A stretch of DNA of 64,000 nt from Aureimonas sp. AU22 (GTDB lineage: Bacteria; Pseudomonadota; Alphaproteobacteria; Rhizobiales; Rhizobiaceae). Position 1 is the stretch's first letter. Each line of letters opens with the position of its first letter. The position numbers and the translations under genes are program-made. The stretch spans positions 186,001 to 250,000 of the forward strand of contig NZ_BBWJ01000004.1 of the NCBI RefSeq assembly GCF_001463745.1, read 5' to 3'. The notes under the pieces are model-generated. The model was not told where the DNA came from, searched no databases, and was given only the letters and a program-made list of their open reading frames with translations. This document shows, piece after piece, positions 37,504 through 44,461 of this stretch.

Positions 37504-37983
37504 TCACTCCGCTGGCGGATCGGTGTCGACAGCGCGAGCCAGGCGGGCGCATCGGATGGTGTGATAACATTCAAGGGCAAGCAGGACCGGGTAGACCGCC
37601 AGCCCTGTCGCGTAAGTCCCCGACTGCATCAGGCCGATCAGGATCTGGAACCAGAAGAAGCAGGACACGAACGAGCCCAAGCAGCGCAGGTGCGGCGATC
37701 GGCGAAGCAGCCCGTTCACCAGAAGGATGATCAGCCTCCCACCTCCGGCCATCAGGCATAGAATTGCCCAGGAGTGCTGCGGCATCAGGTCCGCCATCTT
37801 CACGTAGGACGGGCCTTCCTGGAACAGCTTCGGGTTGAGGTGCAGGACCACCGACCACAGGAACAGGATCGCTGCGAGCGCCCATTCCGAAACGCGCGTG
37901 TCGAACGTCTTGCGAAAGCTCCGGTTGACATGGACGAAGAACGCGCCGACCGAGCGGTCTCCGCTCTTCTCGATCCCGGTCAT
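37504..37983 (-). CDS. phage membrane protein, four helices
   Basis: 159 residues from ATG 37983, which overlaps the endolysin stop by ATGA. Four hydrophobic segments (WALAAILFLWSVVLHL, WAILCLMAGGGRLIILLVNGLL, CLGSFVSCFFWFQILIGLM, YATGLAVYPVLLALECY). Holin-like by place and topology, though longer than most holins. Confidence 0.6.
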   Translation of the reverse strand: MTGIEKSGDRSVGAFFVHVNRSFRKTFDTRVSEWALAAILFLWSVVLHLNPKLFQEGPSYVKMADLMPQHSWAILCLMAGGGRLIILLVNGLLRRSPHLRCLGSFVSCFFWFQILIGLMQSGTYATGLAVYPVLLALECYHTIRCARLARAVDTDPPAE

Positions 37984-38882
37984 ACGGAACGCTCCGACTG
38001 AAACCGCTTGTCCCTCGCAAGATACGCGCCGAGAAAGTTGCCGATCAGGGTGCAGGCACCTCCGACGACCAGGCCCAACGCCGTTGCCGGCGCTCCGCTC
38101 TCCCAAGCGGCCGGGAGCCATCCAGCGGACTGGACGAGCAGGATAAGCGCGGCGCCAATTCCACCCGATACGACGCCCGCCTGCGCGCCTTTCACAGGCT
38201 TGTTCATCTGCTCGATCGGCGTCAGAGGCTTGTCGGTCATGGCAGGCGTCTCCTTCTCGGCCGGGCGCGACGAAGGCACCTCCACAACGATCACGTCTTC
38301 CGGTTCGGGCCGCGCGATCGGCGCGACAGCATCGGCCGCGGCAAGGTCCAGGACTTCGGCGAGAATCCCTTCAATCGCCTCCGGCTTCACCAGCGCCTTG
38401 TTCAGCCCATCGCCGGCATAGAAGCTCTGGCCACGCGAGATCTGCCGATGCTGGCCGCGCGTGGCGATGAGGACGGGGAAACTCGCCCACTCCTGCGCGA
38501 GGCGCTTGGCGAACTCGGTCCGGTCCATCTGACCGGACACGAACTTCTCGTATCCGCGGCGCTTCAGGAGGTGGTAGCCGAGCCGGTCCTGCAGGTTCGG
38601 CTCCATCACCTGCGCGCCGCGCAGCTTCAACTCGCTCTTGAGCTGCGAGAGCGTCGCTCGCATGAACTGGTAGCCGCCGGTCGCCGAAGAGCCGAAGCGC
38701 GAGGACCAGGACTGCTGCTGCCCCAACACCTCGTCCACGGTCATGGACGTGACGGGCTTCGGTAGCTTGTCCTGGTTGTGGCCGAAGATGATGTCGTAAC
38801 CGGATCGGGCCTCCGTCCCAACCTCGGTATCTCGGATGAAGTCGAGCAGGCGCGCCGCGCCGGCGGGGACGGTTCGGTCCAT
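37980..38882 (-). CDS. endolysin (muramidase) with C-terminal membrane segments
   Basis: 300 residues from ATG 38882, with AAGGA upstream. Residues 1-170 are a lysozyme-like domain (LLDFIRDTEVG with probable catalytic E20, YDIIFGHNQDKLPKPVTSMTVDEVLGQQ, SSATGGYQFM). After a linker, residues about 235-290 contain two hydrophobic helices (AGVVSGGIGAALILLVQSAGW, GLVVGGACTLIGNFLGAYLA). A muramidase fused to a holin-like or membrane-tether part. First gene of the lysis operon. Confidence 0.87.
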   Translation of the reverse strand: MDRTVPAGAARLLDFIRDTEVGTEARSGYDIIFGHNQDKLPKPVTSMTVDEVLGQQQSWSSRFGSSATGGYQFMRATLSQLKSELKLRGAQVMEPNLQDRLGYHLLKRRGYEKFVSGQMDRTEFAKRLAQEWASFPVLIATRGQHRQISRGQSFYAGDGLNKALVKPEAIEGILAEVLDLAAADAVAPIARPEPEDVIVVEVPSSRPAEKETPAMTDKPLTPIEQMNKPVKGAQAGVVSGGIGAALILLVQSAGWLPAAWESGAPATALGLVVGGACTLIGNFLGAYLARDKRFQSERSV

Positions 38883-39077: not shown

Positions 39078-39491
39078 TTATCGCCTGCGCTTCGATACGC
39101 TCACGTCTCCGATGGCATCCACCAGGTCACGTAGCCGTGCTCGGATCCTGACATCTTCCACCCGTTCGAGTGTTAGTTGCGTATCCGTGTTCACAGGTAT
39201 GGATCCGATCGTTCTGGCGTCCCCTTGGTCGGTCGTTGGGTGTCCTTCAAAGAAATAAGTGATCTTCACCTCAAGGACGTCGGCAATTTTCAACAGCGTG
39301 CTCGCACTAATCCGATTGGTCCCAGTCTCGTACTTTTGGACCTGCTGATACGTCAGCCCCAGCTCATCACCTAAAGTGGACAGGCTCATTTTCCGATACT
39401 TACGAGCTTCTCTTATGCGCCCGCCTATCCTACTCTCGATATCTTCATCCCGGCGCACTCGCGTAGGCTGTTTTTCTGGAATGATGCTCAC
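39078..39491 (-). CDS. XRE-family repressor (Cro/CI-type)
   Basis: 137 residues. HTH_3 domain at about 24-80 (IREARKYRKMSLSTLGDELGLTYQQVQKYETGTNRISASTLLKIADVLEVKITYFFEG). The C-terminal part (LTLERVEDVRIRARLRDLVDAIGDVSVSKRRR) is short, with no LexA-type protease domain, so it would not self-cleave. Probable lysogeny regulator. The 202 bp upstream (39492-39693) have no gene. Confidence 0.85.
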   Translation of the reverse strand: MSIIPEKQPTRVRRDEDIESRIGGRIREARKYRKMSLSTLGDELGLTYQQVQKYETGTNRISASTLLKIADVLEVKITYFFEGHPTTDQGDARTIGSIPVNTDTQLTLERVEDVRIRARLRDLVDAIGDVSVSKRRR

Positions 39492-39693: not shown

Positions 39694-39909
39694 TTACGTT
39701 GGATCGAACTCCCTCAGGGCAATAATCCGTCGCAGATCCGATCTCATGATCAGGCTGTACCGCGTCAGGATACGATCTTCAGACCAACCAGCATCAACGA
39801 GCTGCATGACGTCCTCGAGAGGGACGCTGGCAATCCGAACTGTCCAGCCCCCGTCCGAGACCTCCCGCGTACGAACGACTGCACGCCCATAGGTCGGGTG
39901 AAACTCCAT
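39694..39909 (-). CDS. small protein, DUF433-like
   Basis: 71 residues from ATG 39909 with GGGG upstream; a GTG at 39936 is possible. The stretch VRIASVPLEDVMQLVDAGWSEDRILTRYSLIMRSDLRRIIAL follows the pattern of DUF433 proteins (helix-turn-helix-like antitoxins). No toxin gene is adjacent. Weak but consistent codon use. Confidence 0.55.
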   Translation of the reverse strand: MEFHPTYGRAVVRTREVSDGGWTVRIASVPLEDVMQLVDAGWSEDRILTRYSLIMRSDLRRIIALREFDPT

Positions 39910-39995
39910 ACGCATCCCCACGTTACCAACGCGCACGATACAATCGAAGCCGGTTCCCAGGGTTCCCTAGCGTAATATTGAACGGTGCACGTCAG

Positions 39996-40103
39996 TTGTC
40001 TGGGCGTCTTAAAACCGGTGAACATTCGCTATCGCGTCCGTCGTCCAGCGGGCTCGCCACGAAGACCCACCTGGCCTCAACATCACGACCGGGTGGGTCG
40101 CCC
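39996..40103 (+). ncRNA. predicted small RNA element, copy A
   Basis: TTGTCT at 39996-40001, then 29 bases later ATCGCGTC at 40031, the same register as copies B-D. Terminator stem GACCCACCTGG (40064-40074)/CCGGGTGGGTC (40089-40099), 14-base loop, then GCCCTC. The -10-like CGTCYT of the others is not kept. Predicted RNA about 73 nt. The rest of 39910-40258 has no gene. Confidence 0.55.
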
Positions 40104-40258
40104 TCAGATGAAGTGTGGGCGGCGTCACCCAAATATGCTTGCGACGCTTGCCACGACATACGGCGGAAACAAACCTTGGCCTTTCGTTGTCTTGCGCCGC
40201 TTACGCAGCCCTATGTCGGTCGCACCTATGTCCTGCGGCCTGCGTTGAGGAACATTGT

Positions 40259-40441
40259 ATGGACGAGCTCGTGCGACGCCTGGCCTTCGAGATCCAAGAG
40301 GACGGCATGAGCCGGCTCAAAGCACAGCGTATTGTCAGTGCCGTTCTCGCCGCTTTGGGCGACGGAGATCAGATCGGCAAAGCGTTGGTTGTGCGATCTG
40401 TTGCTCCGCACGCCAATCGTGACGAAGAACAGCGGTTCTGA
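40259..40441 (+). CDS. small hypothetical prophage protein
   Basis: 60 residues from ATG 40259, with TTGAGGAAC 8 bases upstream. MDELVRRLAFEIQEDGMSRLKAQRIVSAVLAALGDGDQIGKALV reads as a compact helical protein; no family recognised. Between element copies A and B. Confidence 0.5.
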   Translation: MDELVRRLAFEIQEDGMSRLKAQRIVSAVLAALGDGDQIGKALVVRSVAPHANRDEEQRF

Positions 40442-40476
40442 CCGTTGGACTGGCTCCCCCGCCGTTTGATGTGGAG

Positions 40477-40590
40477 TTGACTCTGCCCGACAACGGGCGC
40501 GTCTTGATCTAATCGCGTCGTGTAGGGTCCCTAAAACTCATGACGTGAAGGCCCGTCTGGTAATTGATACTCCCGGACGGGTCGCCTTTT
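40477..40590 (+). ncRNA. predicted small RNA element, copy B
   Basis: TTGACT (40477-40482), N17, CGTCTT (40500-40505), N6, ATCGCGTC (40512). Hairpin 1 closes CGCGTC with GACGTG; the terminator stem is CCCGTCTGG (40552-40560)/CCGGACGGG (40573-40581), then TCGCCTTTT. Stem pairs differ from copy C by compensatory changes. Predicted RNA about 79 nt. Confidence 0.65.
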
Positions 40591-40599
40591 GAGCGGCGG

Positions 40600-40712
40600 T
40601 TGACTCCCTCCCTATTCGGGCGCGTCCTGCGTTGATCGCGCCGCGAAGCGTCTCCAACGGTCTCGACGCGAAGACCCACCCGGACACGCCATCACGACCG
40701 GGTGGGTCGCCT
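40600..40712 (+). ncRNA. predicted small RNA element, copy C
   Basis: TTGACT (40600-40605), N17, CGTCCT (40623-40628), N6, ATCGCGCC (40635). Perfect 11-bp terminator stem GACCCACCCGG (40673-40683)/CCGGGTGGGTC (40698-40708), then GCCTTC. In tandem with copy B, 9 bp after it. Loop shares CATCACGA with copy A. Confidence 0.65.
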
Positions 40713-40741
40713 TCTAGAAAAGGGTCGGTACGATCTGCGCC

Positions 40742-40918
40742 CTAGCGTCGAACGTTATCGTTTTCCGACAGGCGGCGAGCTGGCCACGACAAGATCGCGC
40801 GAAAGTCGGACTCTGCCTCGTATAGGTCGAGTAACGACATGAAGCCGGAAAGTTCCAAAGCTTCAGCGCCCGACATGGCGCCCGCTTCATACGCCTCAAT
40901 GATCTCGTGCAGTCCCAT
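40742..40918 (-). CDS. small acidic helical prophage protein
   Basis: 58 residues from ATG 40918, with AGGAG about 9 bases upstream. MGLHEIIEAYEAGAMSGAEALELSGFMSLLDLYEAESDFRAIL is a convincing amphipathic helical protein, but I do not recognise a family. Opposite strand to the flanking small RNA elements. Confidence 0.6.
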   Translation of the reverse strand: MGLHEIIEAYEAGAMSGAEALELSGFMSLLDLYEAESDFRAILSWPARRLSENDNVRR

Positions 40919-41076
40919 TCGGCGCACTCCTGCTGCGTATCTTCATCGAAGAGGCGCAAGGCATTGAATGTTCCGATAAATCTTCGGTGCCGGCGCGATG
41001 TTCACGCGTCGACTGAGGGATCGCGCCTGCCGCCTGGGCAAATCTGAATTGGCTGGTGGTTGCTGATGAGGTGAGG

Positions 41077-41182
41077 TTGACTCCAGCTGTCGCGCGGCGC
41101 GTCCTAGCGGTATCGCGTCTTCACTCCTACGGTCACGACGCGAAGACCCGCCCAGTAAGTGATACTCCTGGGTGGGTCGCCC
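41077..41182 (+). ncRNA. predicted small RNA element, copy D
   Basis: TTGACT (41077-41082), N17, CGTCCT (41100-41105), N6, ATCGCGTC (41112). Hairpin 1: CGCGTC pairs perfectly with GACGCG; its loop contains ACTCCTAC. Terminator stem GACCCGCCCAG (41145-41155)/CTGGGTGGGTC (41168-41178), loop shares TGATACTC with copy B. Predicted RNA about 71 nt. The rest of 40919-41361 holds only an inverted repeat GTGCCCT/AGGGCAC (41200-41240). Confidence 0.65.
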
Positions 41183-41361
41183 TCAGATGGGAGCGAATAG
41201 TGCCCTTGTTTAAACCAAACGACCCGCTCGCATAGGGCACGTATCGGATTCGCATTCGAGGCACGGAGACAATTCAAATCCTTAATGAGGCCCCATGCTA
41301 CTAGTCAGTTTCGAATAAAGCTGGTTTGCTCCCGCGGTTCAAAGAGCCCGAGGAGGGACTG

Positions 41362-42069: not shown

Positions 42070-42570
42070 CTAAGTCTTGGCGTCGGCGTCCTGACGCATC
42101 AGGTGGATCAGGATGTGTTCCGCCATCAGCTTGACCGGCAACCCTTGCCCGCCAGCGGCTAGGGTCATGATCTGCAAGGCGAGATCGGCAATCCTGTCTG
42201 CAGATGTCTCGTCCGCATCGTCCCGCTCCACGATGCGATTACATGTGGCTTGCAGTTCGCCCGCCTCATTTTCGATCCAAAAGCCTTCGACTTTCACATC
42301 GCGATATACGCCGAACCGATCGCGGAGCGCGTAAGTGAGACGGAGTGGCTCTCGAGCTACGATAGCGGCTTGCGCAATGCGCCGGACGTTCGGCAGATCG
42401 TTAGGGTGAACGTACGTTCGATACTCTTCCCCATCCAGGACGACGCTTTGGGTGGAGACCCCGAGGATCGATGCTAGGTTCGCGTCTAGGTGAAACTTGT
42501 CGCCCTTGGGGCACCATACGAGACCGCCGTCGATCCTAATATTCGCCTTCGCGCTCTGCACATGCGGCAT
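42070..42570 (-). CDS. PAS-domain protein in the prophage
   Basis: 166 residues. Residues about 15-115 form a PAS fold (LVWCPKGDKFHLDANLASILGVSTQSVVLDGEEYRTYVHPNDLPNVRRIAQAAIVAREPLRLTYALRDRFGVYRDVKVEGFWIENEAGELQATC), of the PAS_3 type. No kinase, cyclase or DNA-binding part follows; a short helical C-terminus ends the protein. Unusual cargo for a phage. Confidence 0.8.
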   Translation of the reverse strand: MPHVQSAKANIRIDGGLVWCPKGDKFHLDANLASILGVSTQSVVLDGEEYRTYVHPNDLPNVRRIAQAAIVAREPLRLTYALRDRFGVYRDVKVEGFWIENEAGELQATCNRIVERDDADETSADRIADLALQIMTLAAGGQGLPVKLMAEHILIHLMRQDADAKT

Positions 42571-42907: not shown

Positions 42908-44461
42908 TTAGCTCGGGAAGCTTGCCCCGTAGTCCGCGGCGATAAGCTGCGGGATGGTAACGACCTCGATCGTGCCCGCGTCGCGAAGCTGGGCCAGCCG
43001 TTGAAGCCATGTGGTGAAGTCCACATCGAGCGGCTGATGGAAGTGGTACATCACCGTCGCGCCGCGCTGGATGGCGCGATTGACGTTGACCATCAGGGCG
43101 TCGGCGTCGAGGTTCGAGGTGGAGCAGCTCGGGAACAGCAGACAGCCGTCGTTGAAGCCATAGCGCGTCGGGTAGGTGCCTGCGTCCGTCGTCCGCGCGA
43201 GCTTCACGCCTGCACCTTTGAGTGCCGCAGGCAGTTTGCCGCGATCGTAGGGGCCGCCGACCGTTGTGCGATCCTCGTACACCCCATCCGGATAGCAGAT
43301 GCCATCACCCCCGTACCCGCCCGGACCGTTGACGAGGCCGTTCGCAGCAAGCCATGCACGACCACGCTCGATCTCTGCGACGTTGTCCGACGGCTGAGCA
43401 CGGGTGATGCCATTGCTGCTCGCCGTCATCACCCCGTCGTCTGCCGTCCCGTCGAGGCAGATGGCGTGACCGCGCGCGTAGAGATCCTTCACCATCGCGA
43501 GCGTCATGCGGCCGCTGGTTGACACGGCGCCGCCGATGAATTTTTCCCACGGGGCGAAGAAGCTCAATTTGAAGCCGTAAGCTTCGGCCTGACCTGCGTT
43601 CTTCGTGTATTGCGTGTCATACCCGTCGTCCATTGTGATGGCGACCTTGGTCATGCCGCGCGATTTCGCCAGCGCCATGATGTGCTTGCGCACGGTCAGA
43701 TTATTGGACCCGGTGAACGAAGCCGCAGTGGACATGTTCAGGACCGTTGGCGTGTTGATCGCAGCCAGCGTCGAGACCTCGCTGACATTGCGAGACGTTG
43801 AAACGACGCCCAACGTCCCATCGTCCGCGAGGCCGGACCTGGGCCCGCCGCCAATCGCATTGCGATACGCCGTGTCCGTCGCAAAGCCGTAGGTCGGGCC
43901 ATTGGACTGGTTCTTGGCGGGGTCGGTGCCGCGGTCCTGGAAAAAGGTGACGACGTCCCACTCCGAAGGCGTCTGCGTGCCGATCGACTTATATGCGCGG
44001 CCTGCGGCTCCAGTTTCTGTGACGACCAGCTTGCCCCAATCCACCGCCAAGGTCGGGAGCGGAGATCCTGCGGGCGACCACGCAGTCGTCGTGGCGAAGT
44101 CCTGAAGGACGATCGCAGTGACAGGCACCGGGTTCCATGCCGCTGCGACCTTCTGCGTTCCAGCGTCGGTGCCGGCCATGACGAGGCGGAAGCCAATGTC
44201 GTCGTTCGTCGCCGTGTAGGTGCGGCTGATGGCCCCGGAAATGGCAGTGCGCTGCTTCGGGCTCGCCAGCGTCTCGCGATACCACTGCGGCGAGGTCCAG
44301 TTGGGGCCAGTGTAGGTCTGCCCGACCGAGCCGTCCGTCGTCTTCGTAACGAGGCCGTAGATTGCTGGAACCGAGGGCACCACTCCGCCACCCGCGGCAG
44401 GGGTGATGATGCCGGCGCCGATGTAGCTGTTCGTTCGTTGGGAGTTCGATTTCGACGCCAT
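42908..44461 (-). CDS. tail protein with NodB-type polysaccharide deacetylase domain
   Basis: 517 residues. The N-terminal half is a tail-fibre-like beta region (TYTGPNWTSPQWYRETLASPKQRTAISGAISRTYTATNDDIGFRLVMAGTDAG). From about residue 270 it has the NodB motif 1 (KVAITMDDGYDTQ, the two Asp near 280), RGHAICLDG near 332 and MYHFHQP near 472. The usual HxxxH metal motif is not clear (RGHAICLDG gives one His). Likely removes acetyl groups from a host surface polysaccharide during adsorption. Last gene of the late operon, behind its own terminator. Confidence 0.82.
   Translation of the reverse strand: MASKSNSQRTNSYIGAGIITPAAGGGVVPSVPAIYGLVTKTTDGSVGQTYTGPNWTSPQWYRETLASPKQRTAISGAISRTYTATNDDIGFRLVMAGTDAGTQKVAAAWNPVPVTAIVLQDFATTTAWSPAGSPLPTLAVDWGKLVVTETGAAGRAYKSIGTQTPSEWDVVTFFQDRGTDPAKNQSNGPTYGFATDTAYRNAIGGGPRSGLADDGTLGVVSTSRNVSEVSTLAAINTPTVLNMSTAASFTGSNNLTVRKHIMALAKSRGMTKVAITMDDGYDTQYTKNAGQAEAYGFKLSFFAPWEKFIGGAVSTSGRMTLAMVKDLYARGHAICLDGTADDGVMTASSNGITRAQPSDNVAEIERGRAWLAANGLVNGPGGYGGDGICYPDGVYEDRTTVGGPYDRGKLPAALKGAGVKLARTTDAGTYPTRYGFNDGCLLFPSCSTSNLDADALMVNVNRAIQRGATVMYHFHQPLDVDFTTWLQRLAQLRDAGTIEVVTIPQLIAADYGASFPS

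Follow-up and report, generated by a model that had tools for sequence, protein, structure and literature searches.

Four abundant small RNAs (sRNAs) of Escherichia coli, comprising AgvB, AsxR and their relatives, share 3' parts of about 42 nt, vary at the 5' end and are encoded at a moron site (extracts of PMC4104026). The same extracts place the EcOnc01-03/AgvB/AsxR group of E. coli O157 at this accessory site of related prophages. AgvB and AsxR form a system that antagonises a host sRNA. Pas sRNAs are likewise encoded in E. coli prophages, beside capsid/tail and holin/lysozyme genes and in variable copy number, as stated in part of a preprint (PMC13192938). In Alphaproteobacteria, SmelA075/SmelA099 and RS0680a occur in several copies per genome and consist of hairpin modules whose loops are C-rich and whose stems vary (extracts of PMC3927594). 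The alphaR8 sRNAs of Caulobacter (SisA-D) are several homologous sRNAs in one genome that combine a C-rich core for pairing with a terminal hairpin (extracts of PMC12559287); one copy adjoins an N-formyl glutamate amidohydrolase gene.

We compared these systems with a family of predicted RNAs that has four copies in a 64-kb stretch of Aureimonas DNA (the whole stretch analysed, hereafter the window). An earlier note had proposed that the four copies encode small RNAs with constant ends and variable loops. This core idea stands and the proposal is partly supported, with its promoter, setting and loop claims corrected below. Like EcOnc01-03, AgvB and AsxR, the Aureimonas copies are short, present several times per genome and built of a shared 3' part and a variable 5' part that would pair. 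The combination of conserved 3' part, variable 5' part and prophage location was found here too, with only 14 of 37 copies beside phage genes. The E. coli sRNAs differ in being 51-60 nt long, with a variable 5' end of 14-18 nt, and in coming from an enterobacterium (extracts of PMC4104026), whereas in Aureimonas the varying loop sits inside a fairly constant outer helix and units stand in tandem. A search with the whole Rfam library, in which the models RF02702 and RF02703 are presumed included, gave no match to the E. coli group. The resemblance is a likeness of build, not descent. The Pas sRNAs are alike in being encoded in prophages near lysis/tail genes, in a different host class, and the likeness is by description and not by sequence (part of preprint PMC13192938).

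The two alphaproteobacterial groups were compared in the same way. SmelA075/SmelA099 and RS0680a have two to four hairpins with a CCUCCUCCC motif (extracts of PMC3927594). Their multicopy occurrence is shared by our family (2 to 14 matches per carrier genome), whereas the CCUCCUCCC loop motif of these aSD sRNAs was found in 0 of 37 copies, and in place of three or four aSD hairpins (two in RS0680a) the Aureimonas folds mostly have one loop-bearing hairpin and a terminal one. The alphaR8 sRNAs have a single-stranded UUUCCUCCCU core, which is likewise present in 0 of 37 copies, and the extracts of PMC12559287 give no conserved upstream motif for SisA-D, in contrast to the common promoter-like box of the Aureimonas copies. 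These sequence tests gave no ground for placing the family in AgvB/AsxR, SmelA075/RS0680a or alphaR8.

The pattern TTGNCT-N29-ATCGCGYC has exactly four matches in the window, all on the + strand (39996, 40477, 40600 and 41077), against a mean of 0.02 in 100 dinucleotide shuffles, none of which contained four; the four co-oriented elements of the earlier note are thereby confirmed. Copy A (39996..40104, +) has TTGTCT at 39996-40001, a predicted +1 A at 40031, a degenerate helix 1 (40032-40038 with 40056-40062) and a terminal hairpin at 40064-40099. In copy B (40477..40588, +), TTGACT (40477-40482) and CGTCTT (40500-40505) precede the predicted +1 A at 40512, helix 1 (40513-40519 with 40542-40548) and the terminal hairpin (40550-40583). 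The TTGACT of copy C (40600..40713, +) begins about 12 nt past the predicted end of copy B. It occupies 40600-40605 and is followed by CGTCCT (40623-40628), the predicted +1 A (40635), helix 1 (40636-40642 with 40665-40671), which encloses the apical loop CUCCA, and the terminal hairpin (40673-40708). Copy D (41077..41183, +) has TTGACT at 41077-41082, CGTCCT at 41100-41105 and its predicted +1 A at 41112; helix 1 (41113-41119 with 41137-41143) carries the apical loop CCUAC, and the terminal hairpin spans 41145-41178. As had been noticed before, CGTC stands at N17 from TTGACT in three of the four elements (B, C and D only), each copy ends in a terminal hairpin (11 pairs) followed by GCC(C/T)T, and the compensatory base changes between the stems of B and C are real. 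The suggested CGCGTC/GACGCG helix is perfect in D and has one G-U in B, contains one mismatch in C, and does not hold in A, where 2 of 7 pairs fail and the helix is absent from the minimum-energy fold. Of the supposed variable loops, what stood is that the 5' hairpin differs among copies; several copies nevertheless have the same CUCC(A/U)A apical loop.

Beyond the window, the exact promoter-plus-start pattern matched in 2 of 61 and then in 2 of 121 genomes. A covariance model built from seven copies (R1) had 37 matches in 6 of 21 Aureimonas genomes, and a second one built from 35 copies (R2) had 40 in 5 of the 21. The R2 matches number 14 in the source genome and 10, 8, 6 and 2 in the other carriers; one of the eight is a terminal hairpin only. 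Matches found by R1 alone (two in G016 of at most 24 bits, G002:C324 at 25.4 bits and L006:2616 at 26.5 bits) lie below the R2 listing threshold. The covariance-model search that the earlier note had proposed was thus positive in other Aureimonas genomes and prophages. Applied to 297 genomes of the bacterial family (E 1e-4, stricter filters), R2 matched only in two genus members and at one place elsewhere. This sole place outside the genus (G139; 33.4 bits, E 2e-5) has unrelated ORFs around it and was taken as chance. A pattern for the terminal hairpin retrieved 55 stretches from named genomes; six are Aureimonas records, each of at least 46.7 bits, and the best of the 49 non-Aureimonas stretches reached only 29.1 bits. 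No credible match outside Aureimonas was therefore found among the 297 family genomes and the 49 pattern stretches. Rfam 15 gave no gathering-level match in the 64-kb window, no match up to E 10 over the four copies, and at eight further copy-bearing loci only tRNAs and one nhaA-I RNA at gathering level, none of them on a copy. This agrees with the former statement that no named family matches. We found no description of the family in the literature searched, including that on Aureimonas small RNA, and the extracts of PMC12197685 hold nothing on it. It is an RNA-structure family outside Rfam, seen by sequence in only part of Aureimonas.

We aligned 37 of the 39 whole-unit R2 matches, leaving out two weak ones in G009:C22. 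This alignment (A8) is fitted to the model and so leans toward the model structure. Minus-strand terminal-hairpin matches, L013, L019, L006:2616 and the duplicate L027 were excluded from the alignments; L047:7962 and L039:10099 are in A8 and absent from the alignment A6. The A8 helices comprise 18 pairs and are 94.9% paired, with 11 of the 18 pairs changed on both sides. Doubly changed cells number 61; column shuffles gave 17.5, with 0 of 500 reaching the observed count, and slid-partner controls at most 13. Pairing reaches 91.1% in helix 1 and 97.3% in the terminal helix. Doubly changed pairs in helix 1 numbered none in the first seven copies and four in the 37, and RNAalifold on the fitted alignment recovers the terminal helix only. 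G-U/U-G cells outnumber A-C/C-A cells by 37 to 10 in A8 (p 1e-4, treating cells as independent) and by 31 to 9 on the 29 rows less than 80% alike; the ratio is 19 to 1 in the terminal helix and only 18 to 9 in helix 1. This bias points to the + strand RNA, and not to the DNA or the other strand, as the object of selection. Folds of single sequences mostly have two hairpins, with a small inner stem in the 5' hairpin and apical loops such as CUCCA, CUCCU, GCCCAA, UCCC and CCUU, and also UUGG and AGCU. In one copy (L006:2743) the terminal hairpin is damaged, and the fold is no better than that of shuffled sequences. Covariation over the 37 copies thus supports the view that the family consists of predicted RNAs of about 70-80 nt with selected pairing, and the similar outer parts around a varying 5' hairpin are supported across copies.

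A TTGAC-like box was looked for at 33-39 nt ahead of the helix and occurs in 27 of 35 copies, at a distance of 36 nt in 22, 35 nt in three and 37 nt in two. It begins about 35 nt ahead of a near-invariant A, which directly precedes the helix in 25 of the 27 boxed copies and occupies +1 in 34 of 37. Most spacer positions between box and helix vary freely, with G or C favoured near -16 to -14. A TATAAT-like -10 was not found in 29 copies (mean best match 2.2 of 6, versus 2.5 in shuffles). The CGTCYT motif marks a subgroup only and does not serve as a -10 for the family as a whole. Downstream of the hairpin there is no U-tract, with only 29% T in the 8 nt past the stem over 37 copies, and a consensus scan of 39900-41300 detected neither a sigma-70 promoter nor a U-tract terminator. 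Since TATAAT and U-tract are both missing, transcription of the copies is only predicted. GACTC occurs inside TTGACTC in 12 of 37 copies (window 40477, 40600, 41077 and others). We take this to be GANTC, a CcrM-type site; together with the missing -10 it could, on this assumption, mean that transcription of the copies is linked to methylation or GcrA.

Both signals have parallels in Alphaproteobacteria. Among the mapped transcription starts of S. meliloti is a class of 159 genes that have just a conserved TTG followed downstream by an A; the authors speculate that this class is RpoD-dependent (extracts of PMC3616915). In the high-GC alphaproteobacterium Methylosinus sporium, terminators of the 'I-shaped' kind, which lack the U-tract, account for 78% of the 'HS' transcript ends (extracts of PMC12403871). 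By analogy, a U-less (I-shaped) terminator is possible at the Aureimonas copies, and judging by the sequence both a promoter and a terminator are plausible.

The source genome comprises 4.63 Mb in 85 contigs, and the window copies lie inside a prophage with integrase, endolysin, regulator, tape measure and portal genes. The array is located between the lysis and tail sides of the prophage, on the strand opposite to the late genes. A phage endolysin gene (37980..38882, -, phrog_90) lies on its lysis side, a large ORF without PHROG match (42908..44461, -) on its tail side, and a gene for an XRE-type transcriptional regulator (39078..39491, -) adjoins it. The location, previously called the prophage control region, is hence corrected to the lysis/tail gap adjoining the XRE-type regulator. 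Two small ORFs stand within the array. The one between A and B (40259..40441, +) encodes 60 amino acids from the chosen start at 40259 (MDELVRRLAFEIQ...), has no Pfam match and has relatives near copies in L042 and L043. The other, between C and D (40742..40927, -), encodes 61 amino acids including ...EIIEAYEAGAMS..., gave no Pfam match for the 57 residues searched, and has relatives near copies in L040 and L047. A small PAS-fold ORF (PF08447) also occurs in the prophage close to the array, at 42070-42570.

Phage-type genes stand beside five clusters (window, L042, L043, L045 and L047). The copies of L042 and L043 adjoin endolysin genes, in L042 together with a holin and a weak spanin match. 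Those of L045 are near an ORF of the phage family phrog_8917 (function unknown) that has 40% identity to a late-region ORF of the window prophage, and those of L047 are downstream of a tail-fibre-like gene; for both loci the phage placement is based on few genes. Copies are oriented opposite to the late genes in four of the five phage-type loci, the exception being L047. Among IMG/VR viral contigs, we found the window prophage (L117, four copies) and the L043 prophage (L115, two copies); a further match (L116; 15.5 bits, inside an ORF) was dropped. Searched against plasmid and phage collections, the DNA of 39950-41200 gave no match at E 1e-5.

The family also occurs outside prophages: of the 37 aligned copies, 14 adjoin phage-type genes and 23 are elsewhere. 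Contig C49 of the source genome (121 kb) has 10 matches that are not beside phage-type genes, all on one strand and spread over 67 kb (10634-77685). As for C49 being a plasmid, the RepC family PF03428 had no match in the five genomes. Small ORF families recur next to copies, and the neighbouring ORFs vary from cluster to cluster. Other elements were seen near copies as well. An nhaA-I RNA (Rfam RF03057, 55.1 bits) lies at L039:9398-9453 on C49, about 220 nt upstream of a family copy. Transposase-like ORFs, recognised by eye and split near an (AL)n codon run, stand beside family copies at L006:4592-5427. A divergent hairpin unit with a T-rich tail (22.8 bits) is found at L040:17460-17570, just upstream of a family copy, with a matching stretch upstream of L047:9596.

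Comparison of matching sites suggested how the copies change. In one trio of such sites, the upstream DNA is largely unalignable and the RNA nearly identical, which we read as a sign of selection on the RNA. Two copies from different species have an identical 33-nt 5' part and differing terminal hairpins. At a site common to G009:C23, G009:C24 and G002:C288, the RNA of the downstream copy is 88-95% identical and the roughly 274 nt between the copies are 82-92% identical. The upstream copies of G009:C24 and G002:C288 are 82-85% alike, whereas the identity of the G009:C23 copy to these two is only 48-52% over the hairpin and 51-57% over the promoter, next to about 274 nt at 82% and a downstream RNA at 88-91%. 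This pattern fits replacement or fast change of one cassette. The 60 nt upstream of the divergent copy have 26-55% identity, so a rearrangement ending near it is also possible, and the copy may be a neighbour brought in that way rather than an altered ortholog. More generally, the family could be a cassette system of phage and host made of tandem sRNA genes, in which a similar promoter and terminator would flank a 5' targeting hairpin that is swapped or quickly evolves anew, giving changing regulator repertoires in related prophages and other loci of one clade, with a prophage site beside late genes. We consider this reading tentative and doubtful; the lack of conservation upstream of the divergent copy lowers its odds.

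The sequences themselves show the family, the covariation and strand bias of its structure, and the phage genes around five clusters. On this basis, we think that the copies are probably members of a multicopy Aureimonas sRNA gene family, each with its own promoter and producing a trans-acting RNA of about 70-80 nt with two hairpins. Each unit would have TTGAC at -35 and A at +1, with no clear -10. In the predicted product, the 5' hairpin would consist of an outer helix of the UCGCGUC/GACGCGA type enclosing a small inner stem, whose apical loop is C-rich in most copies; the GC-rich, U-poor terminal hairpin is probably the transcription end. The apical loop would pair with host or phage RNA, a mode that we judge most likely from the precedent of AgvB/AsxR, Pas and the alphaproteobacterial multicopy sRNAs; copies would diversify as the 5' hairpin is changed or exchanged between similar promoter and terminator. 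Hfq is encoded in all five carrier genomes, and any role for it, like the termination, pairing, targets and hairpin exchange supposed here, is something we infer. The loops contain C at 41 of 87 letters, compared with 107 of 297 in the source inner segments. Of 17 distinct loops, 6 contain CUCC (2.2 expected, p 0.011), a modest enrichment of a pattern chosen after looking; the 17 were drawn from 34 of 35 copies, with one over-long loop excluded. The earlier note had pointed to complementarity between a loop and ribosome sites. As a set, the loops do not pair better with a generic Shine-Dalgarno sequence than shuffled ones do (p 0.155), and we rejected a generic anti-Shine-Dalgarno role for the whole family. 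The complement of the copy D loop, GTAGGAGT, has no occurrence in the window other than at copy D.

The loops might instead pair with host sRNAs or with each other, and not with mRNAs. Prophage AgvB and AsxR in E. coli (extracts of PMC4104026) and CrfA, which acts against SisA-D in Caulobacter (extracts of PMC12559287), are precedents for such anti-sRNAs or sponges, and some loops contain CUUGGGUGG, others UGCCCAAG or CCACCUAG. Within genomes, however, loop-loop energies equal those of shuffles (-8.82 versus -8.85, 156 pairs), so we dropped kissing or sponging between copies and regard the wider idea as rather unlikely. The trio L042/L043/L046, with a small co-directional ORF shortly past the terminal hairpin, and L047:7962, which precedes a relative of that ORF, would suit units that are 5' leaders of downstream small genes, hairpin 1 sensing and hairpin 2 acting as a conditional terminator. 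Such an attenuator is unlikely, given that copy B runs straight into the TTGACT of copy C, that an opposite-strand ORF follows copy C, that every tandem unit keeps its own box and +1 A, and that the neighbouring ORFs are not the same between clusters.

A spreading repeat of MITE or REP type, with a role as hairpin-forming DNA and no RNA function, would account for the many copies, the tandem units and the presence in prophages and at other locations, and the fixed distance from box to hairpin is also compatible with a DNA-processing enzyme. Yet diverged copies with free spacers retain a fixed box, the +1 A and paired stems, and the excess of G-U over A-C is what selection on RNA of one strand would give. 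Where sites match between genomes, moreover, the RNA parts are better conserved than their upstream flanks. We therefore hold a repeat of this kind to be quite improbable.

A trans-acting sRNA family, as we prefer to read the copies, would bear on how such regulators arise. All descriptions that we found of prophage sRNAs with a constant and a variable half concern E. coli; a separate family in an alphaproteobacterium, with as many as 14 copies in one genome, would point to more than one origin of the constant/variable design. The copies could help to examine a promoter type with TTGAC and a +1 A but no -10, and their naturally occurring loop variants could be used to learn how sRNAs gain targets. 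With its varying front hairpin and similar start and end, the family looks like a changing toolkit of predicted RNA regulators.
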